From assembly GCF_010550675.1 (NCBI RefSeq), contig NZ_JAAGOA010000003.1, positions 186,001-250,000 on the forward strand: 64,000 nt of DNA. Direction: 5' to 3'. Below the pieces are notes generated by a model that saw only the letters and a program-made list of their open reading frames with translations, did not search any database and was not told the DNA's origin. This DNA comes from Phytoactinopolyspora halotolerans (GTDB lineage Bacteria > Actinomycetota > Actinomycetes > Jiangellales > Jiangellaceae). Positions within the stretch are counted from its first letter, which is position 1. Every line of letters starts with the position of its first letter. Position numbers and translations under genes: made by a program. This document shows, piece after piece, positions 7,360-56,235 of this stretch.

Positions 7360-8382
7360 TGATACGTTGCCGGCGCGGGCTGCGGGTATCGAGATTCCGT
7401 AGTGTCCGGTGCTGTGGATGCGGACGTTGCGGATGGTGACGTTGTTGTGTTCGACGGTGATGGATCCGGTGATCTCCAAGTTCTCGATGACTTGGCCGTC
7501 ACGTGTTGATGTGAGTGATCCGCTCGGTTTGAGTTGGGTGTCGTCTTGAACGCCTGTGTTCGACTCGTCGGGGAAGCCGTTCACCGACGGGGGGTTTGGG
7601 TTGTCCGGTGGTTCCGGATCCGGGTCGGGGTCCGTGGTCGGGTCCGGGTCGGGGTCCGTGGTCGGGTCCGGGTCGGGGTCCGTTGTCGGGGGCTGTGTAG
7701 CCGTGGGCGACGGGTTCGGGCCTGTTGGACTCGGCGTCGGAATAGCGGTCGGATCAGTCGGAGGACTCGATCGCGTGGGGATCGGGCTCGGCGATGCGGT
7801 ACTTGTGGGGCTTGGGCTGCCCGAGGGTGTCGGGGTCCTCGTCGCCTCCGGCAGTGGCGGTTCGGGGAGCACGTTGACCTCGTCGCCGTCGGCACGGCTG
7901 TCAACGATCACCGCAGGACTGCTTCCGGAGTACATGAACGAGTTGCGGCAGCCAGTCACGTCTACACGGCGGGCGGTATAATTTCCGAAGACTAGACCAT
8001 TGGTGCGTGATGGATCGCCGCACTCAATTTCTGAGTCCTCGATGATTGTGCCACTCACGCCAGGAAAAACTCTGACGCTGTGGTATCCGCGGTGCACAAC
8101 TCTCGTTCGCTTGATCGTCACGTTGTCGGCTTTGATCAATATGTACCCGTGCACTTCGAGTGCGTCGATGACCGTACCGGGTTCTGTAACGATGATCTGT
8201 TCACTCGGCGTGAGGTCGACGTCGTTGGGGACGCCGATCGCTTCCGCTTGTTGAGGCAGGATAGCTGTTCCGGCCAGGATTGTTGCGGCAACAACAGCGA
8301 GGATCGCCAATATCCGGAACCTGCGGCGACTGCGCTGTCTGGCGATACGAGCCGATTTCCGCGAGCTGGCGTGTTGGGACAA
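6838..8382 (-). CDS. Secreted right-handed beta-helix protein with PT/PDP-rich linker
   Basis: 514 residues. An Arg-rich N-terminus and hydrophobic segment ending QQAEA give a signal peptide (about 1-47). Residues around 60-170 form a first set of short beta-helix turns (VIDALEVHGYILIKADNVTIK). A Pro/Thr/Ser linker with three 24-bp TTDPDPDP repeats follows, then a second beta-helix of about 220 residues (NVTIRNV, GLVIEHSEL, TIENSWIHDL). Such helices act as glycan lyases, hydrolases or surface binders; no catalytic site is identifiable. The start codon is TTG, supported by AGGGG five bases upstream. The last 523 bp are identical to the next gene. Probably a cell-surface glycan-active or matrix protein. 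Confidence 0.8.
   Translation of the reverse strand: MSQHASSRKSARIARQRSRRRFRILAILAVVAATILAGTAILPQQAEAIGVPNDVDLTPSEQIIVTEPGTVIDALEVHGYILIKADNVTIKRTRVVHRGYHSVRVFPGVSGTIIEDSEIECGDPSRTNGLVFGNYTARRVDVTGCRNSFMYSGSSPAVIVDSRADGDEVNVLPEPPLPEATRTPTPSGSPSPTSTASPSPIPTRSSPPTDPTAIPTPSPTGPNPSPTATQPPTTDPDPDPTTDPDPDPTTDPDPDPEPPDNPNPPSVNGFPDESNTGVQDDTQLKPSGSLTSTRDGQVIENLEITGSITVEHNNVTIRNVRIHSTGHYGISIPAARAGNVSGLVIEHSELIGVSGERSAGIAPFGSWTARHLDISAFEDGIKVGSNQTIENSWIHDLHTPPGSHSDGIQSTGGTNVTIRGNRIEGPWQGQTSAIIIQSNNGPVDTYTIENNLLSGGTYTLYLRDKGTGHGAPRNITVTNNTWTNNSWAYGPTSTDQGPNWTWNNNHTDTGTTID
7621..7689. repeat. 24-bp tandem repeat encoding a TTDPDPDP linker
   Basis: Nearly three in-frame 24-bp units encode an 8-residue Asp-Pro linker between the two beta-helix domains. 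A related linker occurs in the SGNH protein at 19261-19402. Confidence 0.9.
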
Positions 8383-8522
8383 GGGAACCCCTAGGCCTCG
8401 AGTACAAATCGCCCGTAACGTTATACGATCGTTGTGAAAGATCGCTAGTGGGGAATGTAAAAGTCGAGAGTGGTTGTATGTCCAACAATATTGGCGTGAT
8501 TCTGATGGTGGATGAACGTCGT
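8383..8522 (-). promoter_or_regulatory. Promoter region of the beta-helix gene
   Basis: This 140-bp gap between two co-oriented beta-helix genes is visibly more AT-rich than its surroundings (stretches such as ACGTTATACGATCGTTGTGAAA), consistent with a promoter for the downstream gene. No single -10/-35 pair is certain. Confidence 0.4.
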
Positions 8523-9044
8523 TTAGTCGATGGTGGTTCCGGTGTCTGTGTGGTTGTTGTTCCAGGTCCAGTTTGGGCCTTGGTCGGTGGAGGTGGGTCC
8601 GTAGGCCCAGGAGTTGTTGGTCCAGGTGTTGTTGGTGACGGTGATGTTGCGTGGGGCGCCGTGGCCGGTGCCTTTGTCGCGGAGGTAGAGGGTGTAGGTG
8701 CCTCCGGAGAGGAGGTTGTTTTCGATGGTGTAGGTGTCGACGGGGCCGTTGTTGCTTTGGATGATGATGGCTGAGGTTTGGCCTTGCCAGGGTCCTTCGA
8801 TGCGGTTGCCGCGGATGGTGACGTTGGTTCCGCCGGTGGATTGGATGCCGTCGGAGTGTGATCCGGGTGGTGTGTGCAGGTCGTGGATCCAGGAGTTTTC
8901 GATGGTTTGGTTGCTGCCGACTTTGATGCCGTCTTCGAATGCGGAGATGTCGAGGTGGCGGGCTGTCCAGGAGCCGAAGGGTGCTATTCCGGCTGATCGT
9001 TCTCCTGAGACGCCGATCAGTTCGGAGTGTTCGATCACCAGACC
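8522..9044. repeat. 523-bp perfect direct repeat, copy 2
   Basis: Second copy of the block at 6837-7359, including the stop codon. Upstream of 9044 the two genes diverge within a few bases. Confidence 0.97.
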
Positions 9045-9464
9045 AGAGATCTCTTCGGAGAGTTCATGCGGCACGGCTATCGCGTAGTTGCCGGCGCCAT
9101 GAACGCGGACGTTGCGGATGGTGACGTTGTTGTGTTCGACGATGATGGATCCGGTGATCTCCAAGTTCTCGATCACCTCACTGTCGCGTGAGGACGTCAC
9201 CGGCTCGCTCTGTTCGAGGAGCGACTCGTCCGTCACACCCGTTGTGGACTCATCCGGAAAAGCACTGGCGTCCGCCGTCGCTGGAGACTGACCCCCGGAC
9301 GCTGCTCCGCTGGCACCGTCTGCGTCGGACGGAGTGCCGGGGTTCTGGTCTTCGTTCGCGCCGCCACCGGCGCAGCCGATTGGCACGGCGAGAAGCAGCA
9401 CCGCCACAAGCGACGTCAAGCCGCGCATTGCATGAGCCTGCCCGCCATCGCTGGTCTTGCTCAT
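8523..9464 (-). CDS. Secreted beta-helix protein, probable lipoprotein
   Basis: 313 residues. The N-terminus has a hydrophobic segment (about 14-30) ending VPIGC, a plausible but imperfect lipobox, then a Gly/Ser/Asp-rich spacer and a beta-helix with the same turns as the previous gene (VIENLEITGSI, NVTIRNVRVH, TIENSWIHDL). It lacks the first beta-helix domain and the Asp-Pro linker of its paralogue, so it is effectively the C-terminal module with its own export signal. ATG 9464 is preceded by AGGGGG. No catalytic residues can be assigned; a surface glycan-binding or glycan-cleaving role is inferred from context. Confidence 0.8.
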   Translation of the reverse strand: MSKTSDGGQAHAMRGLTSLVAVLLLAVPIGCAGGGANEDQNPGTPSDADGASGAASGGQSPATADASAFPDESTTGVTDESLLEQSEPVTSSRDSEVIENLEITGSIIVEHNNVTIRNVRVHGAGNYAIAVPHELSEEISGLVIEHSELIGVSGERSAGIAPFGSWTARHLDISAFEDGIKVGSNQTIENSWIHDLHTPPGSHSDGIQSTGGTNVTIRGNRIEGPWQGQTSAIIIQSNNGPVDTYTIENNLLSGGTYTLYLRDKGTGHGAPRNITVTNNTWTNNSWAYGPTSTDQGPNWTWNNNHTDTGTTID

Positions 9465-9549
9465 CCGTATCCCCCTCGTGCATCCTCGATGACGGCCGCC
9501 GAGCTGCTCTAGGACGCGTCAGAGCAGATTCGCGGATCACGGGCCGGCG

Positions 9550-11139
9550 TCAAGGTCCGCCGGATGTTACGCCCGGTGTGTGGACGGGCCCGGTGGCGCG
9601 GCCTCGTCTATGGCGCCCCGTGGACTTGGGCTTGAAGACCGTGGGCCATAAGACCGTGAACGGCCGACGGGCCAAGGGCTCGAACAGGACGGCCGTGCCG
9701 CCGATCACCACGACGGCCAGCGCTGCGACGACGATCGCGGACATCCATGCATTGCCGCCGGTGAAAGGTGACGTTGTCGAGATCAGCCAGGCGACCGACG
9801 CCCCGAGCGTCGTTGCTGCGAGCACGGGAACGACGGACTTGAGAACGTCTCGCACGGACAACCCGATCGTCTTGCGCCAGAGCGGGAACAGGATCAGTAC
9901 CGTCATGGCGGTGAACGTCAGTAGGCGGCTGCCAGCTATGCCGAGCACCTGTTCCTGCGTGCCGGTGCCCTGCAGAAGGAGTCCTGGAATGATGAAGGAC
10001 GCTGCGCTGAGCAATCCGGCTACCCACGTGGTCGCCGCGAGTACCCCCGGGCGGCCCATGGCCTGCAGAAGGGGGCCGGTATATGTGGCGAACGCTAAGG
10101 TCACTCCGAGGGCGCACAGAAGCTTCATGGGTCCGGCCGCGGCTGCCCACTCTGGTCCGATCAGGCGCATGAGCGGCTCGCTGCAGACAGCCAGCACCCC
10201 CAGCATCGGCACCGTGATAGTTGTCCCGAGCCGGATGATGGAGAGCGCCCGGTCCCGGAACGCGTGTGGATTCTCCTGATACCGCGACAGCTCCGATAGT
10301 GAGGTCGTCATCATGGCGCCGGTGGTGAGTTCAAGGACCATTTCGGTGAACCGCAGCGCCATTCGGTACAAGCCGACGGCGATAGGGCCGAAGAACAGGC
10401 CGATCAGCAAGGCGTCGGCGCGCTGGTAGAGAAATACACCGAACCCGGCGAGGGCTGAGTGGCCCGAGAATCCGAGCAGTTCCCGGGCTGCGGACCGGGA
10501 GAACCGTGGGTGCGGTCGCCAGTCGCTGACCACCCAGAGCAACGCGACCTCAACCGCGGCGGCAGCGAGCTGTTGGGCGACAAGGGCCCAGTACCCGGCG
10601 CCCGCAAATGCGGAGCCGACGCCGACTGCTCCGCCAAGCAGGACGGCGGCGTTGGCGCGAATAGCCAGCAGCCGGAACTCCATCTGGCGGCGCATGAGCG
10701 CCTCTGGAACAACGGACAGGCCCTTCATGATGAGCAACGGCGACAGCCCGACGACGACGGCTTGGAGGTCAGGCAGCCCGTTGACGGCCGCCCACCAGGG
10801 ACTGAGCACTAGGGTGATGGGAATGAGCACGACCATCGCCGCCAGCGTCATCCAGAACGCGGCGTCGAGGTGCAGATTGGTCAGGTTCGGGCGTTGGACG
10901 ATTGCCGCCACCAGGCCCTGGCGTACCACCATTTCGACAAAGAAGACGTAGACGAGGGCGATCGCGACCAACCCGTAGGCCTCGGGGCCGAGCAAGGCAG
11001 CGAGCACCAGAGAGACGACGAGGTTGACCACGACTCGGCCGCCCGAGAGCAGGTAAGACCACGAGAGCGCCCGGCCGAACGTCGTGGTGGGACGGGCGAT
11101 CTCGGGGGCGTCACTCGTGACCCGTGGCGGGTCAGGCAT
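9550..11139 (-). CDS. Wzx-like polysaccharide flippase (MOP superfamily)
   Basis: 529 residues with about 14 hydrophobic segments. The N-terminal SWSYLLSGGRVVVNLVVSLVLAALLGPEAYGLVAIA block and RADALLIGLFFGPIAVGLY near the middle are typical of PST/Wzx lipopolysaccharide-biosynthesis flippases. It would move the undecaprenyl-linked repeat unit across the membrane to the polymerase at the left edge. A basic, low-complexity cytoplasmic tail ends the protein. Its ATG overlaps the end of the preceding bifunctional gene by 8 bases (ATGCCTGA), so both are one transcript. Confidence 0.88.
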   Translation of the reverse strand: MPDPPRVTSDAPEIARPTTTFGRALSWSYLLSGGRVVVNLVVSLVLAALLGPEAYGLVAIALVYVFFVEMVVRQGLVAAIVQRPNLTNLHLDAAFWMTLAAMVVLIPITLVLSPWWAAVNGLPDLQAVVVGLSPLLIMKGLSVVPEALMRRQMEFRLLAIRANAAVLLGGAVGVGSAFAGAGYWALVAQQLAAAAVEVALLWVVSDWRPHPRFSRSAARELLGFSGHSALAGFGVFLYQRADALLIGLFFGPIAVGLYRMALRFTEMVLELTTGAMMTTSLSELSRYQENPHAFRDRALSIIRLGTTITVPMLGVLAVCSEPLMRLIGPEWAAAAGPMKLLCALGVTLAFATYTGPLLQAMGRPGVLAATTWVAGLLSAASFIIPGLLLQGTGTQEQVLGIAGSRLLTFTAMTVLILFPLWRKTIGLSVRDVLKSVVPVLAATTLGASVAWLISTTSPFTGGNAWMSAIVVAALAVVVIGGTAVLFEPLARRPFTVLWPTVFKPKSTGRHRRGRATGPVHTPGVTSGGP

Positions 11140-12523
11140 CGGCCGCGACCGCCAAGAGCGTGTTGCCCGTCAGCTTCGACGTGAGCCCTCCTGTGCCAAG
11201 CGGCTCACGTCGGCTGGCGTGCCGTCGATCCAAGGTGGTGATCCGGTATCCGGCGGACTCGAGCCACCCTCTTAGGGCCCGGGCGTCGGTCCTGTGCATA
11301 CCGTCGCGTTGCCAGGTCTCGGGAAGAACCCTTGCAGACCGCGGCATCAGTCGGTTGCGAAGCGCATAACGGCGATGATCGGGAACAGTGGTGACTATCG
11401 TCCCCCCAGCGCGCAGTATGGGTTTGACAGCTCGTAGGACCGCCACCGGATCCTCGAAATATGCGAGAACATCGAGAGCAAGGATCGTGTCGACCAAGGG
11501 CAGAGATCGGATCTCCACCTCAGTCGGGACACGGGGCGGGAGGACGTCGACACCGCGGCTCGCGGCGAGCTCCCCCTGTATGCAATCCACCGGGATCGCC
11601 GTGACGGCGATACCGGCCGCTGCCAATGTACTTTCGGTGACCCCAGACACCGTGCCCAGCGACAGGATTCGCTTTGGTTGCGTGCGCAGAACGCTGAGCA
11701 CCGGCGAAGCGGGTTGCGGGTACGTGTGCTTGCTCCAGGAGACGACGTGCGCCGGAAGCTGTGGTTCGATGAGCTGCGCGTCGTCGAGGTCACCACGGCC
11801 GAGCTTGATGGCCGCCTCGATCTCGAGCCGGAAGTCTTCCTCAGGAATGCCCAGCTTGCCCAGGTATACATCGGGGAGGTGGTGAATCAGGAGATCGTCG
11901 ATCTCTTCCAGGCACAGGACCTTCGTTAGACCGCAGGTGGTGTACGGATCGGTGGCGGCCGAGACGAGCATGTCGTACTCGCCTTCGTGTGGCGCCATCG
12001 GGTAGCCGCCCGAGTCCATGATCCGGCCCAGGTGTTCCCGGGTCAGCATGTAGCAGGCCGCATGATCGTTGGTGAAGCGCGCGAAAGTCCGGTTGTCCTT
12101 GACGAACACCGAACTGGGGTCCCACCGGTAGTAGCTGTGCACGGTGGACATTGAGCGACGGCCATCCGGCCATTCCTCGAACCGCATGAAGCCAGGGATG
12201 TAGGCGGCGGGGAGAGCCTCGGACAGTCGCAGGAACGCATCGACGTGGCGCTGTTCGATGAGCGTGTCGTCTTCGGCGTAGATGAACAGGTCATAGTCGT
12301 CGCGACGCTCGCGGAACAAGCTACGATGGGCGAAGGGAAGTGACCATGGGTTGGCGTTGGGCAGGCCGACCCGGACTTCGACGTCGTCCGCGATGTCCTT
12401 GGCGGTCTCCGCCAGTATGACCATGGTGACGTCGATATCCATGGACCGGAACTCCGCCAGCATGCGGTCGAGGTGGCGCCGATTCTTGGTTCCGTGATGC
12501 GCAATGGCTACGAGAGCGCGCAC
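11132..12523 (-). CDS. Glycosyltransferase-like / SAM methyltransferase-like fusion protein
   Basis: 463 residues. The N-terminal half (1 to about 270) looks like a GT-A glycosyltransferase: VRALVAIAHHGTKNR start, then DYDLFIYAEDDTLIEQRHVDAF with an acidic DXD-like site and NDHAACYMLTREHL. The C-terminal half (about 280-460) looks like a class I methyltransferase: ILSLGTVSGVTESTL in place of the usual glycine-rich motif I, then DTILALDVLAYFEDPVAVLRAVKPIL and GGTIVTTVPDHR. Motif I is degenerate, so activity is uncertain. The open frame continues to 13045 opposite the HAD gene, but GTG 12523 has AGGGGGG four bases upstream and is the natural start. It probably builds and methylates part of the glycan. 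Confidence 0.75.
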   Translation of the reverse strand: MRALVAIAHHGTKNRRHLDRMLAEFRSMDIDVTMVILAETAKDIADDVEVRVGLPNANPWSLPFAHRSLFRERRDDYDLFIYAEDDTLIEQRHVDAFLRLSEALPAAYIPGFMRFEEWPDGRRSMSTVHSYYRWDPSSVFVKDNRTFARFTNDHAACYMLTREHLGRIMDSGGYPMAPHEGEYDMLVSAATDPYTTCGLTKVLCLEEIDDLLIHHLPDVYLGKLGIPEEDFRLEIEAAIKLGRGDLDDAQLIEPQLPAHVVSWSKHTYPQPASPVLSVLRTQPKRILSLGTVSGVTESTLAAAGIAVTAIPVDCIQGELAASRGVDVLPPRVPTEVEIRSLPLVDTILALDVLAYFEDPVAVLRAVKPILRAGGTIVTTVPDHRRYALRNRLMPRSARVLPETWQRDGMHRTDARALRGWLESAGYRITTLDRRHASRREPLGTGGLTSKLTGNTLLAVAADA

Positions 12524-27004: not shown

Positions 27005-27523
27005 CTAGCCGCTGAGCGGCTCCTCAGACTCCGCGCCGGCTCTTCGAGACATGGCGTATGCGACCGCGCCCCCCAGCGCGAGTGCACCGCCGATGCCGGC
27101 GACGGTGGCGGCGTCGGAAGCACCCGTGTCCGGGAGCGCCGCCGTCGTGTCGTCGTCGCTCGGCTTGTCGCCGGGCTTCTTGCCTTCCGGCTTGTCCGGC
27201 TTGTCCGGCGGCTTGGTCGATGGAGGCTGCGTGCCCGGCGGCTGCGTCGACGGTGGCTGCGTGCCCGGCGGCTTGGTCGACGGTGGCTGCGTGCCCGGCG
27301 GCTCGCTTGGTGGCGGCTCAGTCCGTGGCGGCTCGCTCGGTGGCGGCGGCGGTGGTTTGGGCGGTTCGGTCGGCGGCGGCTGCGGGCCGCTCGGCGACGC
27401 AGCGTGTGCCGGCGTCAGCGCGATGGCCGTCACCGTCGGCGCCACCCATGCGGCCCCACCGGCCGTAAGTCCGGTGGCCAGCACCCTTCTCCGGCTAATA
27501 CCAGAAGAACTCGTATCTGCCAT
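27005..27523 (-). CDS. Proline-rich LPXTG-anchored wall protein
   Basis: 172 residues. The start carries a twin-arginine-like motif (SRRRVLATG, about 10-18) and a hydrophobic segment ending AHAAS, a Tat-type or twin-Arg-like signal peptide. Residues 45-110 are repeats of PPGTQPPST/PPSEPP. Then come a Lys/Asp-rich stretch, the sorting signal LPDTG (130-134), a hydrophobic anchor and the basic tail RRAG. Sortase would link it to peptidoglycan as an extended polyproline stalk without an enzymatic domain. No sortase gene is in the window. G6 lies nine bases before ATG 27523. Role in anchoring or spacing surface polymer is inferred. Confidence 0.75.
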   Translation of the reverse strand: MADTSSSGISRRRVLATGLTAGGAAWVAPTVTAIALTPAHAASPSGPQPPPTEPPKPPPPPPSEPPRTEPPPSEPPGTQPPSTKPPGTQPPSTQPPGTQPPSTKPPDKPDKPEGKKPGDKPSDDDTTAALPDTGASDAATVAGIGGALALGGAVAYAMSRRAGAESEEPLSG

Positions 27524-27678
27524 TTACTCATGCCCCCCAAGGCAATATCGCACGCCCCCCGTGCGACGCGAGTCATGCTACGGCAAACGAGGGCATTTGT
27601 CGCCACAAGTCCTTTCACGGCCCATTTCGTTTGCGCAAGCGTGACGTTCTCGGACGACTTGGCCGTATGCTGCTGGTT
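27524..27678. promoter_or_regulatory. Divergent promoter region, LPXTG protein / PqqD-like gene
   Basis: 155-bp divergent gap with two C6 runs (G6 on the minus strand) about 20 bases apart. No confident promoter boxes. Confidence 0.4.
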
Positions 27679-27984
27679 ATGGCAGACAGTGTGCCTATGG
27701 CCGACCCCTCGGTCCGTGAGATGGAGATCGATGGGGATATCACGCTGTTTCACGCCGCCACGCAGACCGCCCTTGTGCTCAACGGGACCGCCAGCGATGT
27801 GTGGCGGCTGATCGACGGCGAACGCACGCTGGAGGAGATCGTCGCGGCGCTCGACCAGGCGTATGACGCGGACCCGGAAACCGTCCGCGCCGGTGTCGAC
27901 TCCGCGCTGACGCAACTGCGCGAGCACGGCCTGCTCGCCAGCGGCAACTCCAGCATCAGCACCAACACCAGCAGCGGACGCTGA
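27679..27984 (+). CDS. PqqD-like RiPP recognition element protein
   Basis: About 101 residues from ATG 27679 (27667 is out of frame; 27631 and 27697 are in-frame alternatives). The core EIDGDITLFHAATQTALVLNGTASDVWRLIDGERTLEEIVAALDQAYD is a PqqD/RRE fold: beta-hairpin followed by winged helices. PqqD domains bind leader peptides of RiPPs, and stand-alone forms also occur next to HprK-like proteins in surface-glycan loci. The HprK-like gene follows after 12 bases. The C-terminus is a short Ser/Asn/Thr-rich tail. No precursor peptide is visible beside it. Confidence 0.78.
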   Translation: MADSVPMADPSVREMEIDGDITLFHAATQTALVLNGTASDVWRLIDGERTLEEIVAALDQAYDADPETVRAGVDSALTQLREHGLLASGNSSISTNTSSGR

Positions 27985-27996
27985 GAGGCGTCGTCT

Positions 27997-28632
27997 GTGC
28001 ACTCGCTCGCGTCGGCCATCGAGGAATCCGCCGATCTGTTGCTGCACGCCGGAGCGGTGGAGCGGGCCGGTCAAGCCGTGCTCTTCCCCGGCGAGTCCGG
28101 CGTCGGTAAGAGCACGCTGACGGCGGCGTGCCTGATCCGTGGGTTCGGCTACATCACGGACGAGGCGGTGGCGCTCGACCCGGACACCGGCCGCGTCACC
28201 GGGTTGGCGCGGCCGTTGATGCTCACGCCATGGTCCACCGAGGCGCTCGGGCTCGATCCGGCGCTCGGCGGCTGGTCCGACGAGTCCGCGGACAAGCTCG
28301 CGTTCACCGCGCAGTCCATCGGGGCGCGCGCGGTGACCGAACCCGTCGCGGTCGGCCACGTTGTGCTGGTACGCAGGAGCGGCGCGCGCTCGAACCCGGT
28401 GATCGAGCCGGTCGCGGCCGGGGAAGTGCTGGCGGCGGTACTCGCCGCGTCGTTCAACCACTACCGGCTGGGCGAGCGGGCCTGGGAGGCGGCGGCACGG
28501 CTGTCGACGCAGGTCCAGGGGTGGCGGTTGGACGCCGACGAGCCGGTGGCCGCCGCCGACGCGATCCTACGACTCCTGCCTCAGCGGCTAGAGGCCCCCA
28601 CCACTGCCGTAGAGGCCTCACCGGCACTGTAG
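27997..28632 (+). CDS. HPr-kinase-like P-loop protein
   Basis: 211 residues. A P-loop FPGESGVGKSTLTAA sits near residue 31, preceded by LLLHAGAVERAGQAVLF and followed by GFGYITDEAVALD, the pattern of HprK C-terminal-domain-like proteins; the HPr-kinase N-terminal domain is absent. GTG 27997 has GAGAGG about eight bases upstream. It forms an operon with the PqqD-like gene. Such pairs recur in actinobacterial glycan/RiPP loci, often with asparagine-synthetase-like or B2-protease genes that are missing here. The substrate kinase activity, if any, is unknown. Confidence 0.72.
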   Translation: MHSLASAIEESADLLLHAGAVERAGQAVLFPGESGVGKSTLTAACLIRGFGYITDEAVALDPDTGRVTGLARPLMLTPWSTEALGLDPALGGWSDESADKLAFTAQSIGARAVTEPVAVGHVVLVRRSGARSNPVIEPVAAGEVLAAVLAASFNHYRLGERAWEAAARLSTQVQGWRLDADEPVAAADAILRLLPQRLEAPTTAVEASPAL

Positions 28633-48235: not shown

Positions 48236-50638
48236 CTAGAGCTTCTCGATCGGGGCGAAACGCAGCATCAGCGTCTTGAGCCCCTCGTCGCCGAAGTCGA
48301 CCGTGACCTGAGCCTGTTCACCCTCACCCGAGGTCGCGACGACGGTGCCGAGACCGAAGGCATCGTGGTTGACGCGGTCTCCGGCGGAGAGCATCGGTAC
48401 CGCACGGGCCGGCGCGCTGTTCCGGCCCAGACGGGGCGCCCTCGGTGTGGTCCAGCGGGACTGATCCGCTTCGGTGCGCTTCCAGTCGATCAACTCGTCC
48501 GGAATCTCGCCGAGGAACCGCGACGCCGGGTTGTGGCTCGGCGCACCCCAGGCGCTGCGCACCGTCGCACGAGAGAGATAGAGCCGCTCGCGCGCCCGGG
48601 TGATCCCGACGTAGGCCAGGCGGCGCTCCTCCTCCAGCTCGCGCGGTTCGCCCAGAGCCCGTTGGTGCGGGAAGACGCCGTCCTCCATGCCGGTGAGGAA
48701 CACCACCGGAAACTCCAGACCCTTGGCCGTGTGCAGCGTCATGAGTGTGACGACGCCCTCATGGTCGTCGCCTTCGGGGATCTCGTCGGCGTCGGCCACC
48801 AGGCTGACCCGCTCCAGGAACCCGGTGAGCGTGCCCACCTCCTCGTCGGCCTGGCTGACGTCGTACTCGGCGGCGACGGCGATGAGCTCGCGGAGGTTGT
48901 CCACCCTGGTCTCGTCCTGCGGATCGTCCGACTCGTCGAGCTCGGCCATGTAGCCGGTCCGCTCCAGCACGGCCTCCAAGATCGCCGCGGGGTCATGGTC
49001 GTCGTCGACCATCCGTCGTAGTTCGTCGGCGAGTGAGACGAAGCCCTCGATCGCCTTGACCGACCGTGCCGCGATGCCGGGGGCGTCGGCCGCACGTCGC
49101 AACGCCTGCCAGAACGTGATCCGCTCGCGCTGCGCGAGGGCGTCGATCATCGCTTCCGCCCGGTCCCCGATGCCACGCTTCGGGACGTTGAGAATGCGCC
49201 GCAGCGAGACCGTGTCTTCCGGGTTCGAGAGGAAGCGCAGGTAGGCGAGGGCGTCCTTGATTTCTTTGCGCTCGTAGAAGCGGACCCCGCCGACGACCCG
49301 GTACGGCAGCCCGACGCGGATCAGGATCTCTTCCAGTACCCGCGACTGCGCGTTCGTCCGGTAGAAGATGGCGACATCGCCCGGATTGGCCTGCCCCTCG
49401 TCGCTGAGCCGGTCGATCTCCTCCGCGATGAACTGCGCTTCGCTGTGCTCGTCGTCGGCGACGTATCCGACGATCTTCGCACCGTCGCCGCTCTCGCTCC
49501 ACAACCGCTTCGGCTTGCGACCCTCATTGCGCGAGATCACCGCGTTGGCGGCGGAGAGGATGGTCTGCGTGGAGCGGTAGTTCTGCTCCAGCATCACGAC
49601 GTGCGCGTCCGGATAGTCCTTCTCGAACTCCTCGATGTTGCGGATGGTGGCGCCGCGGAAGGCATAGATCGACTGATCCGCGTCGCCGACCACACACAAC
49701 TCGGCCGGCTCCACCGCGTGCGCGTCCGCGTCGCCGGAGCCACCCGGGGCGGCCGCCGTCCCTGCGCCGCCTACCAGCTCACGCACCAGCACATACTGGG
49801 CGTGGTTGGTGTCCTGATACTCGTCGACCAGGATGTGCCGGAATCGGCGGCGGTAGTGCTCGGCGACGTCCGGGAACACCTGCAGCAGGTTGACCGTGGT
49901 CATGATGAGGTCGTCGAAGTCGAACGCGTTCGCGTCGGTCAGCCGCTGCTGATACATCGCGTAGGCCTCGGCGATGGTGCGCTCGTGGTGGTTGCTCGCC
50001 TGGGCTGCCGCCGTCTCGTGATCGATCAACTCGTTCTTGAAGTCACTGACGGCGTAGCTGAACTTCTTCGGCGGGTACCGCCGCGGATCCAGGTCGAGGT
50101 CGCGGCAGACCAGCGCCATGAGCCGCTGCGAGTCCGCCTGATCATAGATGGTGAACGACGAGGTGAACCCGAACCGCTTGGCCTCGCGGCGCAGGATGCG
50201 CACGCAGGCGGAGTGGAACGTGGAGACCCACATGATCTGTGCGCGTCGCCCGACCAGTTCGGTGACCCGCTCCTTCATCTCACCGGCGGCCTTGTTGGTG
50301 AAGGTGATGGCCAGGATCGAACCCGGATGGACGTTGCGCTCCGCCAGTAGGTAGGCGATGCGGCGGGTGAGTACCCGTGTCTTGCCCGACCCGGCTCCCG
50401 CGACGATCAGCAGCGGGGGACCGTGGTGCGAGACCGCCTCGCGCTGTTGCGGGTTGAGCCCGTCCAAGATGGACTCCGGGTCGGCGCGCCGCCCCTCACC
50501 ACCGCCGCCGTCGGACGACTTCCCCGACGGCCCGGCCGTTGTCGCGGCTCGCGAGCGGGCAGGGGACGGCTCCTTTCCGGGCACCGGAACGGATGCCGGG
50601 GGCGGCAACAGCGCGGGCTGTTCTGTGGGTGTGCTCAT
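48236..50638 (-). CDS. pcrA: ATP-dependent DNA helicase PcrA/UvrD-type
   Basis: 800 residues. A disordered N-terminal extension of about 55 residues precedes LNPQQREAVSHHGPPLLIVAGAGSGKTRVLTRRIAYL (Q-motif and Walker A at 81-87). FTNKAAGEMKERV, DEYQDTNHAQYVLVREL, GDADQSIYAFRGA, EQNYRSTQTIL, TLHTAKGLEFPVVFLTGMEDGVFPH and VGITRARERLYL are superfamily 1 motifs Ia-VI. The C-terminus has the Tudor-like RNA-polymerase-binding tail (GDRVNHDAFGLGTVVAT). It unwinds DNA in repair and plasmid replication. Monocistronic, with a repeat-rich gap upstream. Confidence 0.95.
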   Translation of the reverse strand: MSTPTEQPALLPPPASVPVPGKEPSPARSRAATTAGPSGKSSDGGGGEGRRADPESILDGLNPQQREAVSHHGPPLLIVAGAGSGKTRVLTRRIAYLLAERNVHPGSILAITFTNKAAGEMKERVTELVGRRAQIMWVSTFHSACVRILRREAKRFGFTSSFTIYDQADSQRLMALVCRDLDLDPRRYPPKKFSYAVSDFKNELIDHETAAAQASNHHERTIAEAYAMYQQRLTDANAFDFDDLIMTTVNLLQVFPDVAEHYRRRFRHILVDEYQDTNHAQYVLVRELVGGAGTAAAPGGSGDADAHAVEPAELCVVGDADQSIYAFRGATIRNIEEFEKDYPDAHVVMLEQNYRSTQTILSAANAVISRNEGRKPKRLWSESGDGAKIVGYVADDEHSEAQFIAEEIDRLSDEGQANPGDVAIFYRTNAQSRVLEEILIRVGLPYRVVGGVRFYERKEIKDALAYLRFLSNPEDTVSLRRILNVPKRGIGDRAEAMIDALAQRERITFWQALRRAADAPGIAARSVKAIEGFVSLADELRRMVDDDHDPAAILEAVLERTGYMAELDESDDPQDETRVDNLRELIAVAAEYDVSQADEEVGTLTGFLERVSLVADADEIPEGDDHEGVVTLMTLHTAKGLEFPVVFLTGMEDGVFPHQRALGEPRELEEERRLAYVGITRARERLYLSRATVRSAWGAPSHNPASRFLGEIPDELIDWKRTEADQSRWTTPRAPRLGRNSAPARAVPMLSAGDRVNHDAFGLGTVVATSGEGEQAQVTVDFGDEGLKTLMLRFAPIEKL

Positions 50639-50750
50639 CGTGAGAACTACCCTATGCGGACGGACCGACAGCGACGAGTCGGCCGGTTGGCGGCGGGCGC
50701 GGCGCCAGCGCCGTGCCGTTCACTCCCGGTCCCCGCCCCGGCACCTCTCC

Positions 50751-50856
50751 GCACGACAGACGACACGGTCTGGCGGGAACCGGCACGATGTCGCACGACA
50801 GACCGCACGGTCTGCCGCAGGCCGGTTCCAGGTCACACGACAGACGACACGGTCTG
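50751..50856. repeat. Three 42-bp tandem repeats with internal dyad
   Basis: Units start at 50751, 50793 and 50835. Each begins with RCACGACAGAC and contains CAGAC-N6-GTCTG. Weaker units follow at 50878, then in inverted orientation near 50902, 50944 and 50995. Confidence 0.85.
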
Positions 50857-51132
50857 CATGGTGAGCGGCCGTCCGTCACACGACGGCTCACACAGAGGGG
50901 TCGTGTGGGCGGTTGTGCGCGTGCCGGCCGATAGACACCGGGTTGTGTGAGCGGTCGTGCGAACCGGGGCCGCTAAATGCCGCGTACCCACGACTGTGCG
51001 AGCTGTCGTGTGCGTCTTGACCGCCCAGAGCGGTCAGACTGATCACGACACAGTTCACGACTCGATCGAGCGGCCGAAACTGACACAACTAATCGCACGA
51101 CAACGGCGACGCGGCCGGTCGGCGACCACAAC

Positions 51133-51202
51133 GACGATGCGGCTGGCCCGGGGGCGACGACGATGCGGCTGGCCCGGGGGCGACGACGATGCGGCTGGCC
51201 GG
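51133..51202. repeat. 26-bp tandem repeat
   Basis: Two full units and a truncated third, with the GATGCGGCTGGCC core starting at 51136, 51162 and 51188. Confidence 0.9.
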
Positions 51203-51463
51203 ACGACAGCGACAACGACGCATCCGGCCGCACGGCTCGAGTGACGGCGTCCGCCTACGCCACACGCCGTCGCACTTGCCGTGGTGGCTGATCTGCCGGA
51301 GTTGGCACACGCTGCCACGGGACTCGAGTCGCGACGCCACCCCGCATGTGACCTGCGCAAACGCACCGTAAGGAGCAGAACACGCCAGAGAGGGTACACA
51401 CACGCACTTTGCCGCTAGCCAGCCGTTGATCCGGCGACACCGCTTGCGCGGGTGCCAACGTGA

Positions 51464-51498
51464 AAGGCCCCGGTCGGATCTGATCCGGCCGGGGCCTT
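51464..51498 (-). terminator. Strong hairpin terminator of the precursor gene
   Basis: Sixteen-base arms beginning AAGGCCCCGG on both sides with one wobble position, and a minimal loop. Read on the minus strand it starts 18 bases after the precursor stop and is followed by TTTCACG. Confidence 0.8.
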
Positions 51499-51516
51499 GA
51501 CGGTGGAGCCTGACGA

Positions 51517-51687
51517 TCAGGAGAAGCCGCCGTTGTCTCCGTTGGCGGAGCATTCCCCATGCTGGTCGATGTGGTGCGGCACGTCAGGGCTGTCCTTGGG
51601 CGGCGGGCCCGACAGCGACGGGTTGCACCGGCTGAGCGTGAGCTCGACGACCGATCCGATGACGGTGATCTCTGGGCGCTGATACAT
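51517..51687 (-). CDS. Lasso-leader RiPP precursor peptide with atypical core
   Basis: 56 residues: leader MYQRPEITVIGSVVELTL then SRCNPSLSGPPPKD... ending DNGGFS. Tyr2, Pro5, Ile7, Gly11 and Thr17 match the lasso leader pattern YxxPx(L/I)xxxGxxxxxT that is bound by B1/RRE proteins. With Thr17 at position -2, the core would start at Ser19, but residues 7-9 of that core are Leu, Ser, Gly, with no Asp or Glu to close a lasso ring. Two Cys (21 and 46) and a PPP stretch are present. ATG 51687 has AAGGGGGGAGG upstream and a strong terminator downstream. It is divergent from an asparagine-synthetase-like gene. Confidence 0.75.
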   Translation of the reverse strand: MYQRPEITVIGSVVELTLSRCNPSLSGPPPKDSPDVPHHIDQHGECSANGDNGGFS

Positions 51688-51811
51688 GGAGCGCCTCCCC
51701 CCTTTGCGAGACTGCGTTGTCCCGCCCTCACTCCTCGAGGCATTCGATGCCTCCTCTAATGGAGGCGGATACTATCATGTCGCCAAGGGGTTGGCGACTG
51801 AGGGGGATGTC
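51688..51811. promoter_or_regulatory. Divergent promoter region, precursor / cyclase
   Basis: This 124-bp gap drives both genes. AAAGGGGGGAGG serves the precursor and AGGGGG (51801-51806) the cyclase. An AT-richer block near 51750-51780 (GAGGCGGATACTATCATGTC) is the likeliest promoter core. Confidence 0.5.
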
Positions 51812-53605
51812 ATGGCGGTCGGGGCGATTGCTGGTGCGATATCGCGGCAGGTCAAACTCGATCCGGGAGTCGTCGTCCGGATGCTTGACGAGGTGCCGCA
51901 CCGCGGCACCGTGGTCCAGACATTGGAGCGTGGCAACGCGGCTCTGGGCGTGGTGGGCGACGGGATCCACAGCGTATCGAGCCTTGGTGTCCACGGGCGT
52001 ATGTCGTGCGCCCTGTTGGGCCCGCTCGACAACGTCGCCGAACTCGGGCGCGAACTCGGGCTGCACGGCGAACCCTTGGGGCAGCAGGACGCCGCACGGG
52101 TGGTGGCGGCTGCGTTCGTGCGCTGGGGAGCGGCCGCCGCGGGCAAGCTCCGAGGCGCGTTCGCGTGCATCGTCACCGACGGTGAGCGTGCATGGTCGTT
52201 CCGGGACCATATCGGCGGCCGGCCGTTCTTCTTCCGCGACGACGGCCACACGTGGTGGGGAGCCAGCGAAGCCAAGCAGGTGGTGGCCGGCGCCGGACTC
52301 GACCGGCGACCGGACCTGGACGCGATCGCCACGACGTACTTTCGGGGCGTCTCCTCCGACGCCGCGCTGAAGGGCGTGTCCAGGCTGCGTTACGGCAGCA
52401 TCCAGACGGTCGGTCCGCACGGCAGCACCGAGGACCTGCACTGGAACCCGGGACCCGAGATGCTGGAGACTGCACGGCTGTCCGTCGACGACGCCGTGGA
52501 TGAGCTCACTGAGGTGATGCGGCGCGCGGTGGAACGTACCGTGCACGGCGCGGACGCGGTGGCGCTCAGCGGCGGGATCGACTCACCGGCGGTCGCGGCG
52601 TTCGCGGCACCGCGGCACCAAGAGCTGGCAGGGATTCCGCTGCACGCGTACACCTACGTGTATCCGCATCAGTCGACGGTCGACGAGAGCCCGTACACCA
52701 GGGCGGTGGCCGAGCAGCTGGGCATTCCGCTGAAGGAGTTCGAGGTGACCTCCGGTCCGCTGGACGAACTGGACACGTGGGTGGCGCTCGCCGACGGGCC
52801 GTGGGACAGCCTGCCGATGGCCACGGCGGCCTACGGGTACCGGGTGGCGGCTGGGTTCGGTGCGACCCAGGTGCTGACGGGCACGCTCGCGGAGTACGTG
52901 TTCACGATCAACTCGTTCCTGCTCGGGCATCTCGCCTCGCACGGCCGCTGGCGAGCCCTGGCCGACCAGATGTCGAAACGGCGGGCCGCTGGGATGGGCC
53001 GGCGGCGGCTCGCCCGGCGGCTGGTATGGGAGCTGACGCCCGCTCCGGCCGGAAAGTTCAAGGCGTGGGCGGTCCGCAGACGGTCGAACTTCTTCCCGCT
53101 CTGGACGGACATGACGGTGGTCGGTGGCTACCGGTACGAGACTGCGCTGCTGAACCCGGTGCGGAAACGATGGACGACGCCCACCCTGCAAGCGGCTCGG
53201 GGCACCACCACGACCTCGGAGGCGATGGAGATCTGCGCCGCTGCGGAAGGCGTGACGGTGCGTCAGCCGCTGGCTGACCGGGACCTGTGGGAGTGGTTCC
53301 TGCGGCTGCCGGCAGAGGTTAAGTTCCCCGATACGGTGCCGAAGTCGATCGTGCGCAGGGCGCTGCGCGGGCGGGTGCCTGATACGGTGCTGGACCGTCG
53401 TGACAAGACGTTGTTCGACGAACACGTCATGGACACGGTGCCGTGGGATCGGCTGCGGCATTACCTCAGCGACACCGACTACCGGATGCCAGGGATCGAC
53501 TATGCGATGCTGCTCGACCGGGTGGATCGCAAAGCGCTCCGCCCGGTCGAGCTCATCTGGGCCTACGACCTGTGCGGCGTGCACGCGTTCGTCAAGACGT
53601 TCTAG
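51812..53605 (+). CDS. Asparagine-synthetase-like cyclase (lasso C-protein-like)
   Basis: 597 residues from ATG 51812, five bases after AGGGGG; the longer frame to 51686 overlaps the precursor. The N-terminal half is a glutamine-amidotransferase-like domain (AWSFRDHIGGRPFFF, WWGASEAKQVVAG), but the second residue is Ala, so the nucleophilic Cys is missing. The C-terminal half has the ATP-pyrophosphatase loop LSGGIDSPAVAAFAA (SGGIDS at about 253-258) and DRRDKTLFDEHV. This fits enzymes that adenylate a carboxylate and close an amide or macrolactam, as in lasso cyclases, rather than a true AsnB. It is divergent from the lasso-leader precursor; no B1, B2 or dedicated transporter is adjacent. Confidence 0.8.
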   Translation: MAVGAIAGAISRQVKLDPGVVVRMLDEVPHRGTVVQTLERGNAALGVVGDGIHSVSSLGVHGRMSCALLGPLDNVAELGRELGLHGEPLGQQDAARVVAAAFVRWGAAAAGKLRGAFACIVTDGERAWSFRDHIGGRPFFFRDDGHTWWGASEAKQVVAGAGLDRRPDLDAIATTYFRGVSSDAALKGVSRLRYGSIQTVGPHGSTEDLHWNPGPEMLETARLSVDDAVDELTEVMRRAVERTVHGADAVALSGGIDSPAVAAFAAPRHQELAGIPLHAYTYVYPHQSTVDESPYTRAVAEQLGIPLKEFEVTSGPLDELDTWVALADGPWDSLPMATAAYGYRVAAGFGATQVLTGTLAEYVFTINSFLLGHLASHGRWRALADQMSKRRAAGMGRRRLARRLVWELTPAPAGKFKAWAVRRRSNFFPLWTDMTVVGGYRYETALLNPVRKRWTTPTLQAARGTTTTSEAMEICAAAEGVTVRQPLADRDLWEWFLRLPAEVKFPDTVPKSIVRRALRGRVPDTVLDRRDKTLFDEHVMDTVPWDRLRHYLSDTDYRMPGIDYAMLLDRVDRKALRPVELIWAYDLCGVHAFVKTF

Positions 53606-53655
53606 CTGCCAGTCGGGGCGTGTCACCTGTCCGGCGGCGGTGATTGTCCGGCGAC

Positions 53656-53703
53656 GCCGGCCGTCAGGCGTGCCGGCCGTCAGGCGTGCCGGCCGTCAGG
53701 CGT
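53656..53703. repeat. 16-bp tandem repeat at the MFS stop codon
   Basis: Three exact copies of GCCGGCCGTCAGGCGT at 53656, 53672 and 53688. The MFS stop lies in the middle copy; as 16 is not a multiple of three, copy-number change would alter the C-terminus. Confidence 0.93.
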
Positions 53704-55005
53704 AGGGGGTGACGTGCTCGGCCGGCCGTGCCCGCGCCGCGCCCGGACCAGGAGCAGCGCGATCAACCCGTACACCGCGGCCCATCCGGCGAACAGCGTG
53801 CCATGGCTTGCCACCGTCGACGCCGCACCGTAGACGACGAAAACGCCGATGGTCGCCACCTCGGTTCCCAGCCCTGCCACCGAGGTGACGGTCGAGCGAG
53901 CCGCGCCGCTGATCGTGCGCTGAAGCCGGGCGTCGGCGGCGATCTGCACCATCTGGAACACACAGAAGGCGGCACCGATCAGCGCGAACCCGACGAGCGC
54001 GGCGGTCGCAACGGTCGTCCCGGCCGCCGCTGATACGCCATCTGCCGACGCCCCGCCCGCCGGCACGCTGCCCGCCAGCGCCCTGCCTGCCAGCACCCCG
54101 CCCGCCGCCAGCGTCGCTGCCGCGAGCGTGAGTGTGCCGGCGATCAATGGACGCGGCAGACGCCCGGCGACCTCGCCCAGCAAACCTCCCGCGGCTACTC
54201 CGGCGTAGACAAGCAACAGGAGCAACGGGACCGACGCGGTCGACACGCCCGCGTCGACGGCGAGCAGCGCGAGAAACTCGTCGAGCGCGCCCCAGACCGC
54301 GGCGACCGCCACCAGGAACACGATGGCGACACGGACGCTGCGTCGGGTGCGGACCTCAACCATGCCGGCCCGAAACACCTGCGCGAAGCCTGGGCCGGTG
54401 CTCTGTACCGGGTCGCGGTCACGGTGCTCCGGTAGTCTCGTTGCGACCATCGCGCAGGCCAGGCAGGCCGCCACGCTGGCGGCGCCCACCGCGGGGTAGC
54501 CACCGACGGCGAAGACGGGCCCTGCCGATGCCATCGCCACCGCGGCTGCCACCGTGCTCGCGGTCTGCGTGCGTCCGATCACCCTCGCGTACCGGTCGGC
54601 GGATTCGAGCCGTTCCAGCTCGGTGTAGACCAGCGCCTCGAACGCCCCGGACCGCAGAGCGCTGTGCGCACCCCACAGGACGAAGCCGACGGCGAACGCG
54701 GGATAGGAGGGTGCCAGGACCCAGAGCGCGTATCCGGTGCCGGCCAGCAACGGTCCGATCGTGAGCAGGGTGCGCCGGGAGACGGCGTCGGCCAACACAC
54801 CGGAGGGGACCTCCAGCAGGATGTTGGCTGCCGACCAGATGACGAACAACGACGATATCTGCGCGGTGGACAGCCCAGATTCGGCGAACAGGACCGCGTA
54901 CAGCGGATAGAGCAGGATGAACTCTTCCAAGAACGCGTACAGGTAAAGACGACGAGCCAACCGGGCCGCGGACACACCACGGCCACGTGAAATGCGAGCG
55001 AGCAT
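53680..55005 (-). CDS. MFS transporter
   Basis: 441 residues with about 12 hydrophobic segments. AANILLEVPSGVLADAVSRRTLLTIGPLLAGTGYAL is motif A; LWGAHSALRSGAFEALVYTELERL follows, as in the YfmO/tetracycline-type DUF894-like exporters. The substrate is unknown. Convergent with the asparagine-synthetase-like gene, 74 bp apart, so it could export its product, but there is no operon evidence. The Pro/Thr-rich C-terminus ends inside a 16-bp repeat. Confidence 0.85.
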   Translation of the reverse strand: MLARISRGRGVSAARLARRLYLYAFLEEFILLYPLYAVLFAESGLSTAQISSLFVIWSAANILLEVPSGVLADAVSRRTLLTIGPLLAGTGYALWVLAPSYPAFAVGFVLWGAHSALRSGAFEALVYTELERLESADRYARVIGRTQTASTVAAAVAMASAGPVFAVGGYPAVGAASVAACLACAMVATRLPEHRDRDPVQSTGPGFAQVFRAGMVEVRTRRSVRVAIVFLVAVAAVWGALDEFLALLAVDAGVSTASVPLLLLLVYAGVAAGGLLGEVAGRLPRPLIAGTLTLAAATLAAGGVLAGRALAGSVPAGGASADGVSAAAGTTVATAALVGFALIGAAFCVFQMVQIAADARLQRTISGAARSTVTSVAGLGTEVATIGVFVVYGAASTVASHGTLFAGWAAVYGLIALLLVRARRGHGRPSTSPPTPDGRHA

Positions 55006-55323
55006 GAGACCTTCCTGATGAGGAGCCGGAGCGGACGCGGAGCGTGCGAGCTCGGAGGTCCGCGGGCTCTCGCACCGGGGAGGTCTATCGGCTCAGATCA
55101 ACATCGCCAGGTCATGCCAGACATCATAGCCAGACACCGCCATGGCGCCGAGCGGCTTTCGGCGTCGCCGCCGTGTGGTTTCGGGGTCGCTGGGCGGCTT
55201 CGGCCGTCGGTGGCGAGACCAGCCGGCGATCGCCGTATCCACCGATCGGTTGATACGGCAATCTACCGATCGCTGACCTCGGTGGGCGATCCGTCATCGC
55301 GCCGCGACGGCGATTCTCGAGTC
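55006..55323. promoter_or_regulatory. 318-bp divergent region with TetR-type operator candidate
   Basis: It separates the MFS gene from the ABC/two-component operon. A 22-bp palindrome GTATCCACCGATCGGTTGATAC (55235-55256, one mismatched pair) lies 67 bases before the ATPase start, and an extra ACCGATCG half-site follows near 55265. Direct repeats GCCAGACA occur at 55116 and 55129. The frame open through this region from 55018 has no ribosome site and is not called. Confidence 0.6.
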
Positions 55324-56235
55324 ATGGCGATCATCGAGGTAACCAACCTGCATAAACGCTACGGCGACACGGTGGCTGTCGACGACGTCTCGTTCAGTGT
55401 CGACGAAGGCGAGATCTTCGGGATCCTCGGCCCCAACGGCGCGGGCAAGACCACGACGGTCGAGTGTGTGGAAGGTCTGCGCGTGCCCGATCGGGGCACG
55501 GTCACCGTGCTCGGCCATGACCCGATTCAGGACCGAGGAGAACTCCGGCAGCAGGTCGGCGCGCAGCTTCAGGAGAGCCGGCTGCAGGACAAGCTGACGG
55601 TGGCGGAGGCGTTGGACCTGTACAGCTCGTTCTACCGGCAGCCCGCGGACTGGAACCGGCTGCTCGAGGTACTCGGGCTCGCCGACAAGCGGAACACCCA
55701 GTACCGGAAGCTGTCCGGCGGCCAGAAACAGCGTCTCTCGATCGCGTTGGCCCTGGTGGGGAACCCGAAGATAGCGGTGCTCGATGAGCTGACCACCGGC
55801 CTGGATCCACAGGCGCGCCGGGACACCTGGGATCTGATCGAACAGGTCAGGAACTCGGGCGTCACGATCGTGCTGGTCACGCACTTCATGGACGAGGCCG
55901 AGCGGTTGTGCGACCGGCTCGCCCTGATCGACTCCGGGCGGATCGCCGCATTGGACACGCCGGCCGGGCTGGTGTCCCGGGCTGCGCAGGAGCAGCGGGT
56001 GCGGTTCCGTCCCTCCGCGCCGCTGGACGATGACCTTCTGACCGGATTGCCCGAGGTGACGGCGGTCCAGCACAGCGGTCAGCAGACAATCGTGACCGGA
56101 ACCGGGAACCTGTTGCATGCCGTGACGTCGGTCCTTGCGCGGAACCAGATCGTGGCGGCCGACCTGCGTGTCGAACAGACCACTCTCGACGACGCGTTCA
56201 TCGCCCTCACCGGTCGCCGGCTCGACACGGAGTGA
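55324..56235 (+). CDS. ABC transporter ATP-binding protein (DrrA/NatA-like)
   Basis: 303 residues from ATG 55324. Walker A GPNGAGKTTTVECVEGL, Q-loop QLQESRL, signature LSGGQKQRLSIALAL, Walker B IAVLDELTTGLDPQARR and switch His in THFMDEAERLCDRL are all present. Walker B has Leu where Pro is common. The DrrA/CcmA-type C-terminal extension (VRFRPSAPLDDDLL) follows. It powers the permease encoded next. Operon: ATPase, permease, histidine kinase, response regulator. Confidence 0.93.
   Translation: MAIIEVTNLHKRYGDTVAVDDVSFSVDEGEIFGILGPNGAGKTTTVECVEGLRVPDRGTVTVLGHDPIQDRGELRQQVGAQLQESRLQDKLTVAEALDLYSSFYRQPADWNRLLEVLGLADKRNTQYRKLSGGQKQRLSIALALVGNPKIAVLDELTTGLDPQARRDTWDLIEQVRNSGVTIVLVTHFMDEAERLCDRLALIDSGRIAALDTPAGLVSRAAQEQRVRFRPSAPLDDDLLTGLPEVTAVQHSGQQTIVTGTGNLLHAVTSVLARNQIVAADLRVEQTTLDDAFIALTGRRLDTE

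Follow-up and report, generated by a model that had tools for sequence, protein, structure and literature searches.

The window analysed here is a stretch of 64,000 nucleotides from Phytoactinopolyspora halotolerans, corresponding to positions 186001-250000 of its contig (NZ_JAAGOA010000003.1). It carries, pointing away from each other, a small gene for a precursor peptide with a lasso-type leader and a gene for an AsnB-like protein, a putative cyclase; they are called A' and C' below. Their features are listed here, in window positions.

51464-51498, no strand assigned: GC-rich hairpin 3' of A', with 17-nt arms, a candidate terminator without T-run (hairpin scan; counterpart in Phytoactinopolyspora alkaliphila).
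51517-51687, minus strand: A', a 56-aa precursor peptide with a lasso-type leader (open reading frame (ORF) list; NF033521; P. alkaliphila homologue at E 2.3e-29; ratio of nonsynonymous to synonymous substitution rates, dN/dS, 0.19).
51520-51633, minus strand: predicted core of A', residues 19-56, with acids at core positions 14, 17, 23, 27 and 33, Lys13, Cys3, Cys28 and a C-terminal Ser.
51634-51687, minus strand: leader of A', residues 1-18, YxxPxIxxxGxxxxxT, with Thr at -2 (alignment of five A' relatives and the resident leaders).
51688-51811, no strand assigned: divergent intergenic region carrying both ribosome sites (sequence; similarity to P. alkaliphila DNA extends through it).
51812-53605, plus strand: C', AsnB-like putative cyclase of 597 aa from which the glutaminase Cys is absent (PF00733, motifs, clade, dN/dS 0.12).

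The original prediction, made from the letters of this DNA, had described a 56-residue gene with the lasso leader residues and its own ribosome site, and all of these were located in the sequence. The A' protein (MYQRPEITVIGSVVELTLSRCNPSLSGPPPKDSPDVPHHIDQHGECSANGDNGGFS, ORF 51517-51687, minus strand) begins with the leader YQRPEITVIGSVVELT, whose spacing is that of lasso leaders and whose Tyr2, Pro5, Ile7, Gly11 and Thr17 were verified in the translation. Against the NCBIfam model lasso_leader_L3 (NF033521), A' scored 18.4 bits, just under the cut-off of 19. We infer from the sequence that Thr17 occupies position -2 of the core. Counted from Ser19, core positions 7-9 are Leu-Ser-Gly, and they are identical in P. 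alkaliphila. Lasso rings usually comprise 7-9 residues; the usual ring acid, predicted to be missing at these positions, is indeed absent, a state kept in 4 of 5 relatives. The ribosome site of A' (GGGGGGAGG) lies on the minus strand, 6 nt ahead of the ATG, and 124 bp separate the start codons of the two genes. A scan for sigma-70 promoters in the A'/C' region, 51688-51811 included, gave no match, nor did an Rfam search of window positions 51000-54000. The terminator that had also been predicted was only partly recovered: the hairpin is there, and a similar one is visible in the sequence 3' of the P. alkaliphila A' gene, but the terminator scan found no T-run terminator downstream of A'. Three short tandem repeat arrays flank the pair in intergenic DNA, at 50738-50857, 51097-51213 and 53656-53703, with units of 42, 26 and 16 bp respectively.

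The best start of C' is the ATG at 51812. Its Pfam domains are PF00733 (asparagine synthase, 1.5e-31) and, weaker, PF13537 (amidotransferase, 2.2e-10). The claim of a head-to-head AsnB-like partner lacking the glutaminase Cys was borne out, the N-terminus reading MAVGAIAG where the host genome's own AsnB has MCGLSGEY, so that Ala replaces the Cys. C' failed both lasso-cyclase models (NF033535, 130.6 bits with 525 needed; NF033561, 56.2 bits with 300 needed), and two of its relatives scored 100 and 121 bits on the first. NF033535 is nevertheless a strict and unfair judge of all lasso cyclases, since the short lasso cyclase resident in the same genome itself scores only 20 of the 525 bits. On TIGR01536, the model for glutamine-dependent asparagine synthetase, C' reached 132.4 of the 267.1 bits needed, and it lacks the Cys. 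The PP-loop SGGIDS is intact, SGGxDS being kept in the alignment, and so is the C-terminal Lys region; ATP-dependent acyl activation is therefore expected for C'. Where AsnB and lasso cyclases have TGxGGDE, C' has a loop reading LTGTLAEY. This loop is LTGxxAE in all five C' rows of our alignment, whereas the Asp (TGEGGDE, SGQGADE or similar) is present in all 28 comparison rows, which comprise 19 short lasso cyclases, two other lasso cyclases and seven AsnB proteins. In a tree, the C' rows were monophyletic (100/100) and separate from the short-cyclase clade (100/100); this tree has several long branches, was built without four further AsnB-fold proteins of the genus (see below), and leaves the nearest neighbour of the C' clade unsettled. 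A PDB sequence search with C' returned one weak relative, 7ylz (E 1.4e-11). An AlphaFold model from a two-row alignment had a mean predicted local distance difference test score of 33 and was not used.

The A'/C' pair was also found in P. alkaliphila, where it is again divergent and where both genes are about 85% identical to those of the window. The dN/dS ratio was 0.12 for C'. For A' it was 0.19 overall, with 0.28 in the leader and 0.14 in the core, values that are rough because the gene is short and offers few sites. Both ratios point to purifying selection on A' and C'. The reading frame, on whose conservation the original prediction had been made to hinge, is conserved in this homologous pair, and related pairs recur in three distant genomes (see below). 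A search of 148 relatives with C' at 1e-20 matched only its own genome, P. alkaliphila (G004) and G134. The C' matches in G134 and G312 were read as ordinary AsnB genes located in polysaccharide loci, not as family members. Eight of the weak A' matches (E at least 0.005) were read out: one was an ordinary lasso precursor (G092) and seven were not such precursors. A genome-collection scan with two exact seven-residue patterns, which detects close relatives only, gave a single match, P. alkaliphila CGMCC 4.7225, and the viral contigs and plasmids searched gave no relative.

The two species carry the pair in different genomic places. DNA similarity between them (78.6%) covers window positions 51517-53604, beginning at the stop codon of A' and ending at that of C', and no other match was found between window positions 49500-56000 and positions 7000-12000 of the P. 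alkaliphila locus (L034). The window pair sits between a UvrD/PcrA helicase gene and a major facilitator superfamily gene. In P. alkaliphila, it is flanked by a sugar-transferase gene on one side and a cysQ-like gene (inositol-phosphatase family) on the other, a junction which is present without the pair in the window genome and in G002. No direct repeats bracketing the pair were detected in either genome at the settings used, and recombinases in the wider region were not searched for. The ATP-binding cassette (ABC) transporter downstream of C' was considered as a part of the cassette and rejected: its ATPase (55324-56235) is 28-31% identical to the ABC ATPases of the clusters, whereas those share 54-56% identity among themselves, and in P. 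alkaliphila the transporter does not adjoin C'.

Three more C' relatives, 37-42% identical, came from a sample of 396 genomes of the phylum; they are in G588, G446 and G549. G588 and G549 share one class and G446 belongs to another, both different from that of Phytoactinopolyspora. In G588 and G446, a lasso-leader precursor directly precedes C' on the same strand; in G549 the precursor lies about 2.2 kb from C', again on the same strand, with ABC transporter genes and B1 in between. In all five genomes, C' has a precursor with such a leader next to it or nearby. B1, the protein carrying the RiPP recognition element (RRE; RiPP, ribosomally synthesised and post-translationally modified peptide), was identified in all three distant genomes by reading and BLAST, with a Pfam PqqD match in the two that were tried, and B2 was likewise present in each of them (Pfam Transglut_core3, 3/3). 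The kinase relatives near the distant C' genes were recognised by BLAST to the resident kinase, two of them having no match when given to Pfam, and the ABC genes by reading and BLAST of one ATPase. The C' gene of G549 is truncated where its contig ends; the kinase and B2 lie on another contig, which we take to be its continuation. Further samples of 27, 24, 393 and 375 genomes, which overlap so that their sizes are not additive, added no member. The match in G416 from the phylum sample was an ordinary lasso cyclase (NF033535, 761 bits) outside the C' clade.

Alignment of the five A' relatives, two of which are near-copies, gave the invariant columns M1, Y2, P5, G11, S12, T17, P23, G27 and E45 (window numbering). 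Every core has two Cys, the second preceded by a Glu at a distance of one to four residues, and at least one Lys; in each core a Lys lies no more than two residues from an acid. The C-terminal residue is Ser in 4 of 5, G446 ending in Asp, and an acid at core 7-9 after Thr(-2) is found in one of five (G446, Asp7). The shared core positions are suggestive only: shuffling gave p values of 0.03 (uncorrected) for the window-G549 pair of cores, 0.17 for window-G588 and 0.92 for window-G446, while a control pair, the P. alkaliphila A' core and an ordinary core, reached 0.02. The G446-G549 pair alone stood out (p 0.001).

Separately, the G416 locus (L115) holds an ordinary lasso cluster with B1, B2 and a kinase, in which a precursor (7504-7710, minus strand) accompanies the cyclase (7860-9857, minus strand) that passes NF033535. 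The core of this precursor resembles that of A': no acid at core 7-9, two Cys with an Asp just ahead of the second, a PPP run, a Lys and a terminal Ser. Unusual cores of this sort are therefore not confined to the C' clade.

The absence of B1 and B2 genes near the pair, noted in the original prediction, holds for the adjoining genes, but a complete ordinary lasso cluster lies on the same contig at about 177.4-181.2 kb, some 56 kb from A' (locus L057, 5370-9163). It contains B1, two precursors, a cyclase, B2 and an HPr-kinase-like gene. In P. alkaliphila the ordinary cluster lies about 4 kb past C', so that both carriers of the pair hold a B1-A-C-B2-kinase cluster. Searches with PF13471 (B2) and PF05402 (PqqD-like RRE) were each positive in 4 of 5 genus members, and the idea that the genome has no B1 or B2 at all was rejected by these family searches. 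The resident cyclase, of about 400 aa, has no amidotransferase-like domain; the 19 short cyclases of this kind group in a single clade, and the type was present in 19 of the 393 genomes of a class sample (1e-25). With a strict leader motif, 30 ordinary precursors were found in 18 of 20 short-cyclase loci, none being found in L082 and L083. Many of the 30 are closely related to each other, and their agreement in leader spacing holds by construction, as the motif demands it. Other features common to all 30 were not imposed by the motif: counted from a Thr(-2) cut, the ninth core residue is always Asp, the C-terminal residue is always Ser, and Cys is missing from every core. A' shares its leader spacing with the two resident leaders and its terminal Ser with the ordinary precursors; it differs by the lack of Asp9 and the presence of Cys.

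We propose, tentatively and at slightly less than even confidence, that A' and C', precursor and cyclase, form a portable cassette belonging to a lasso-type RiPP branch that has diverged, and that this cassette would close an isopeptide ring at a non-canonical Asp or Glu with the help of enzymes acting in trans. The resident ordinary cluster would supply B1 and B2 in trans; the RRE protein B1 would bind the A' leader, and B2 would cut it off after Thr17-Leu18. This cut, after Thr(-2), is preferred because the same count gives Asp9 throughout the ordinary clusters, while the Thr-Pro distance varies among A' relatives. C' would then spend ATP to activate a core Asp or Glu side chain outside positions 7-9, the best candidates being Asp14 beside Lys13 and Glu27 beside Cys28, and an amine, either that of the N-terminal Ser19 or core Lys13, would close the isopeptide ring. 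With a Thr(-2) cut the predicted ring would greatly exceed nine residues in size, unless a crosslink through Lys13 formed instead. The two core Cys may form a disulfide. The resident HPr-kinase-like protein, present in the genome only in trans to A', would probably phosphorylate a Ser of A', presumably the C-terminal one, which is the phosphorylated site in paeninodin-type clusters (PMC9266682). A wider version of the proposal, in which two-gene cassettes move between places and plug into resident B1, B2 and kinase enzymes, and in which the LTGxxAE clade closes rings larger than nine (14 or 27 here) as a new macrocycle class, appears doubtful as a whole.

Several observations weigh against this proposal. 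No B1 or B2 gene adjoins A'/C' in either Phytoactinopolyspora genome, only five members of the family were found, and the distant genomes have A' and C' running in the same direction instead of divergent. G446 has an Asp at core 7 and an Asp, not a Ser, at its end. Core similarity beyond the genus is not established and no ring acid is proven common, because the window-G549 value of 0.03 has to be read beside the 0.02 of the unrelated control. The loss of the loop Asp may mean that C' carries out a different reaction, and four further AsnB-fold proteins of the genus (x_ rows, function unassigned) carry a Gly at the same site. Kinases of this kind also act elsewhere than at the C-terminus, BsfK on core Ser3 (PMC10368454) and LppK likewise on Ser3 (PMC13381572).

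The main alternative is that an ordinary lasso ring is made after all, C' being a divergent lasso cyclase and the leader being cut after the conserved Pro23, so that Ser24 to Asp32 would form a normal 9-residue ring; rings of 8 and 9 residues are mentioned in PMC13352647. The original statement that the core cannot form a lasso is accordingly sound only if the cut falls after Thr(-2); a cut after the aligned Pro puts an Asp at position 9 in the window, in P. alkaliphila and in G588, and at position 8 in G549, four of the five relatives. Pro23 and Gly27 are invariant. Such a cut would leave Ser, Asn, Pro, Gly and Gly in first place, and an Asn at position 1 was recently reported for metanodin (PMC12670498). 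A Pro would however come first in G588, and in G446 the acids would fall at 4 and 11 only. Moreover, the number of residues from Thr to Pro varies (5, 5, 3, 3, 7), against a Thr(-2) count that gives Asp9 in 30 of 30 ordinary precursors. We consider this explanation unlikely, if still a serious one.

C' could also perform another AsnB-type chemistry, namely amidation of a carboxylate, nitrile formation or a Lys-Asp/Glu crosslink, without any lasso-like N-terminal ring. According to PMC13060819, AsnB-like RiPP enzymes amidate (TsrC, ScdTA) or make a nitrile (PesC). The lasso and AsnB rows retain an Asp that the C' clade, with its LTGxxAE, does not have, and the Lys found within two residues of an acid in each A' core would suit a crosslink. 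The precursors nevertheless retain a lasso leader with Thr(-2), and loss of the glutaminase Cys makes an intramolecular amine a more natural nucleophile than ammonia. This last point is not decisive, as PesC is reported to accept ammonia too (PMC13060819). Such a chemistry is, in our estimation, rather improbable.

Very unlikely, in comparison, is that A' is a linear phosphopeptide of the LPP (linear polyphosphorylated peptide) type and that C' is vestigial or acts elsewhere. LPPs do combine a YxxP leader with an RRE and with a kinase of the HPr type, and they are found alongside lasso clusters (PMC13381572); A' has a C-terminal Ser, and kinase genes are present in the genome. According to that paper, however, LPP clusters have no cyclase, use a signal-peptidase-like enzyme and show a different leader consensus, YxxPxVLxHQ, whereas C' is under purifying selection (0.12) and accompanies such a precursor, adjacent or close by, in each of the five genomes. 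A chance ORF or a decayed lasso cluster, which the few relatives, the lack of adjacent B1/B2 and the missing ring acid might suggest, is scarcely credible given the conserved frame, the dN/dS of 0.19, a core more constrained than the leader (0.14 against 0.28, on few sites) and the conserved pairing; for A', a chance ORF is disfavoured by the ratio and the pairing alike.

Among the known systems closest to the proposed cassette, paeninodin-type lasso peptides share its YxxPx(I/L)...T leader, its C-terminal Ser and its predicted use of B1, B2 and HPr-kinase-like enzymes (in trans for A', near C' in the distant genomes). The cassette differs in having no Asp or Glu at 7-9 under a Thr(-2) cut, two Cys, and a cyclase of another clade far below the model cut-off. 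The short-cyclase lasso clusters of the family and of other actinomycetes share leader spacing, terminal Ser and the same host genome with it; they differ by Asp9, by the lack of core Cys (30/30), and by a cyclase of about 400 aa, without amidotransferase-like domain, in a clade of its own. LPPs (PMC13381572) are alike in placing a lasso-like leader and an RRE outside ordinary lasso chemistry and in coexisting with lasso clusters; they are described with a leader peptidase like signal peptidase I and no cyclase, whereas A' has an AsnB-like partner and a leader off the LPP consensus. The suggestion that a RiPP branch might use the lasso leader for altered chemistry is, with this precedent (PMC13381572), a fair reading. 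For the other possibility raised there, that the peptide becomes attached to a surface polymer, no evidence turned up, although no test was aimed at it. TsrC, ScdTA and PesC likewise put an AsnB-fold enzyme to work on a ribosomal peptide, but they are reported to modify the C-terminal carboxylate, while C' lacks the glutaminase Cys and pairs with a lasso leader (PMC13060819).

The leader, the likely partners and the general enzyme class are already known. For the C' clade, the A' core type and the mobility of the two genes, no description was found in the literature searched, outside which subscription papers mostly fell. A C' clade paired with acid-less cores would either extend the range of ring sizes or point to leader cleavage at an unexpected site, and the five natural precursor/cyclase pairs make both outcomes directly testable. 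The cassette also suggests that RiPP enzymes may be shared in trans, precursor and cyclase being located apart from the leader peptidase.

The window holds another RRE gene of the PqqD-like family (27631-27984, plus strand), followed by an HPr-kinase-like gene (27997-28632, plus strand), in a sugar-nucleotide/glycosyltransferase locus. A motif scan of the window revealed no convincing YxxP precursor near this pair (27631-28632). Its PqqD protein had been considered as a mycofactocin component, an assignment which was dropped as the gene adjoins the HPr-kinase-like gene in that sugar-nucleotide locus. The RRE/kinase pair is also present in P. alkaliphila (L116), and recalls LPP-type clusters. 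Adjoining it, a gene at 27005-27523 (minus strand) encodes a protein that is predicted to be exported, contains a proline-rich repeat and has an LPDTG-like end; a partial homologue of it occupies the same place in P. alkaliphila.

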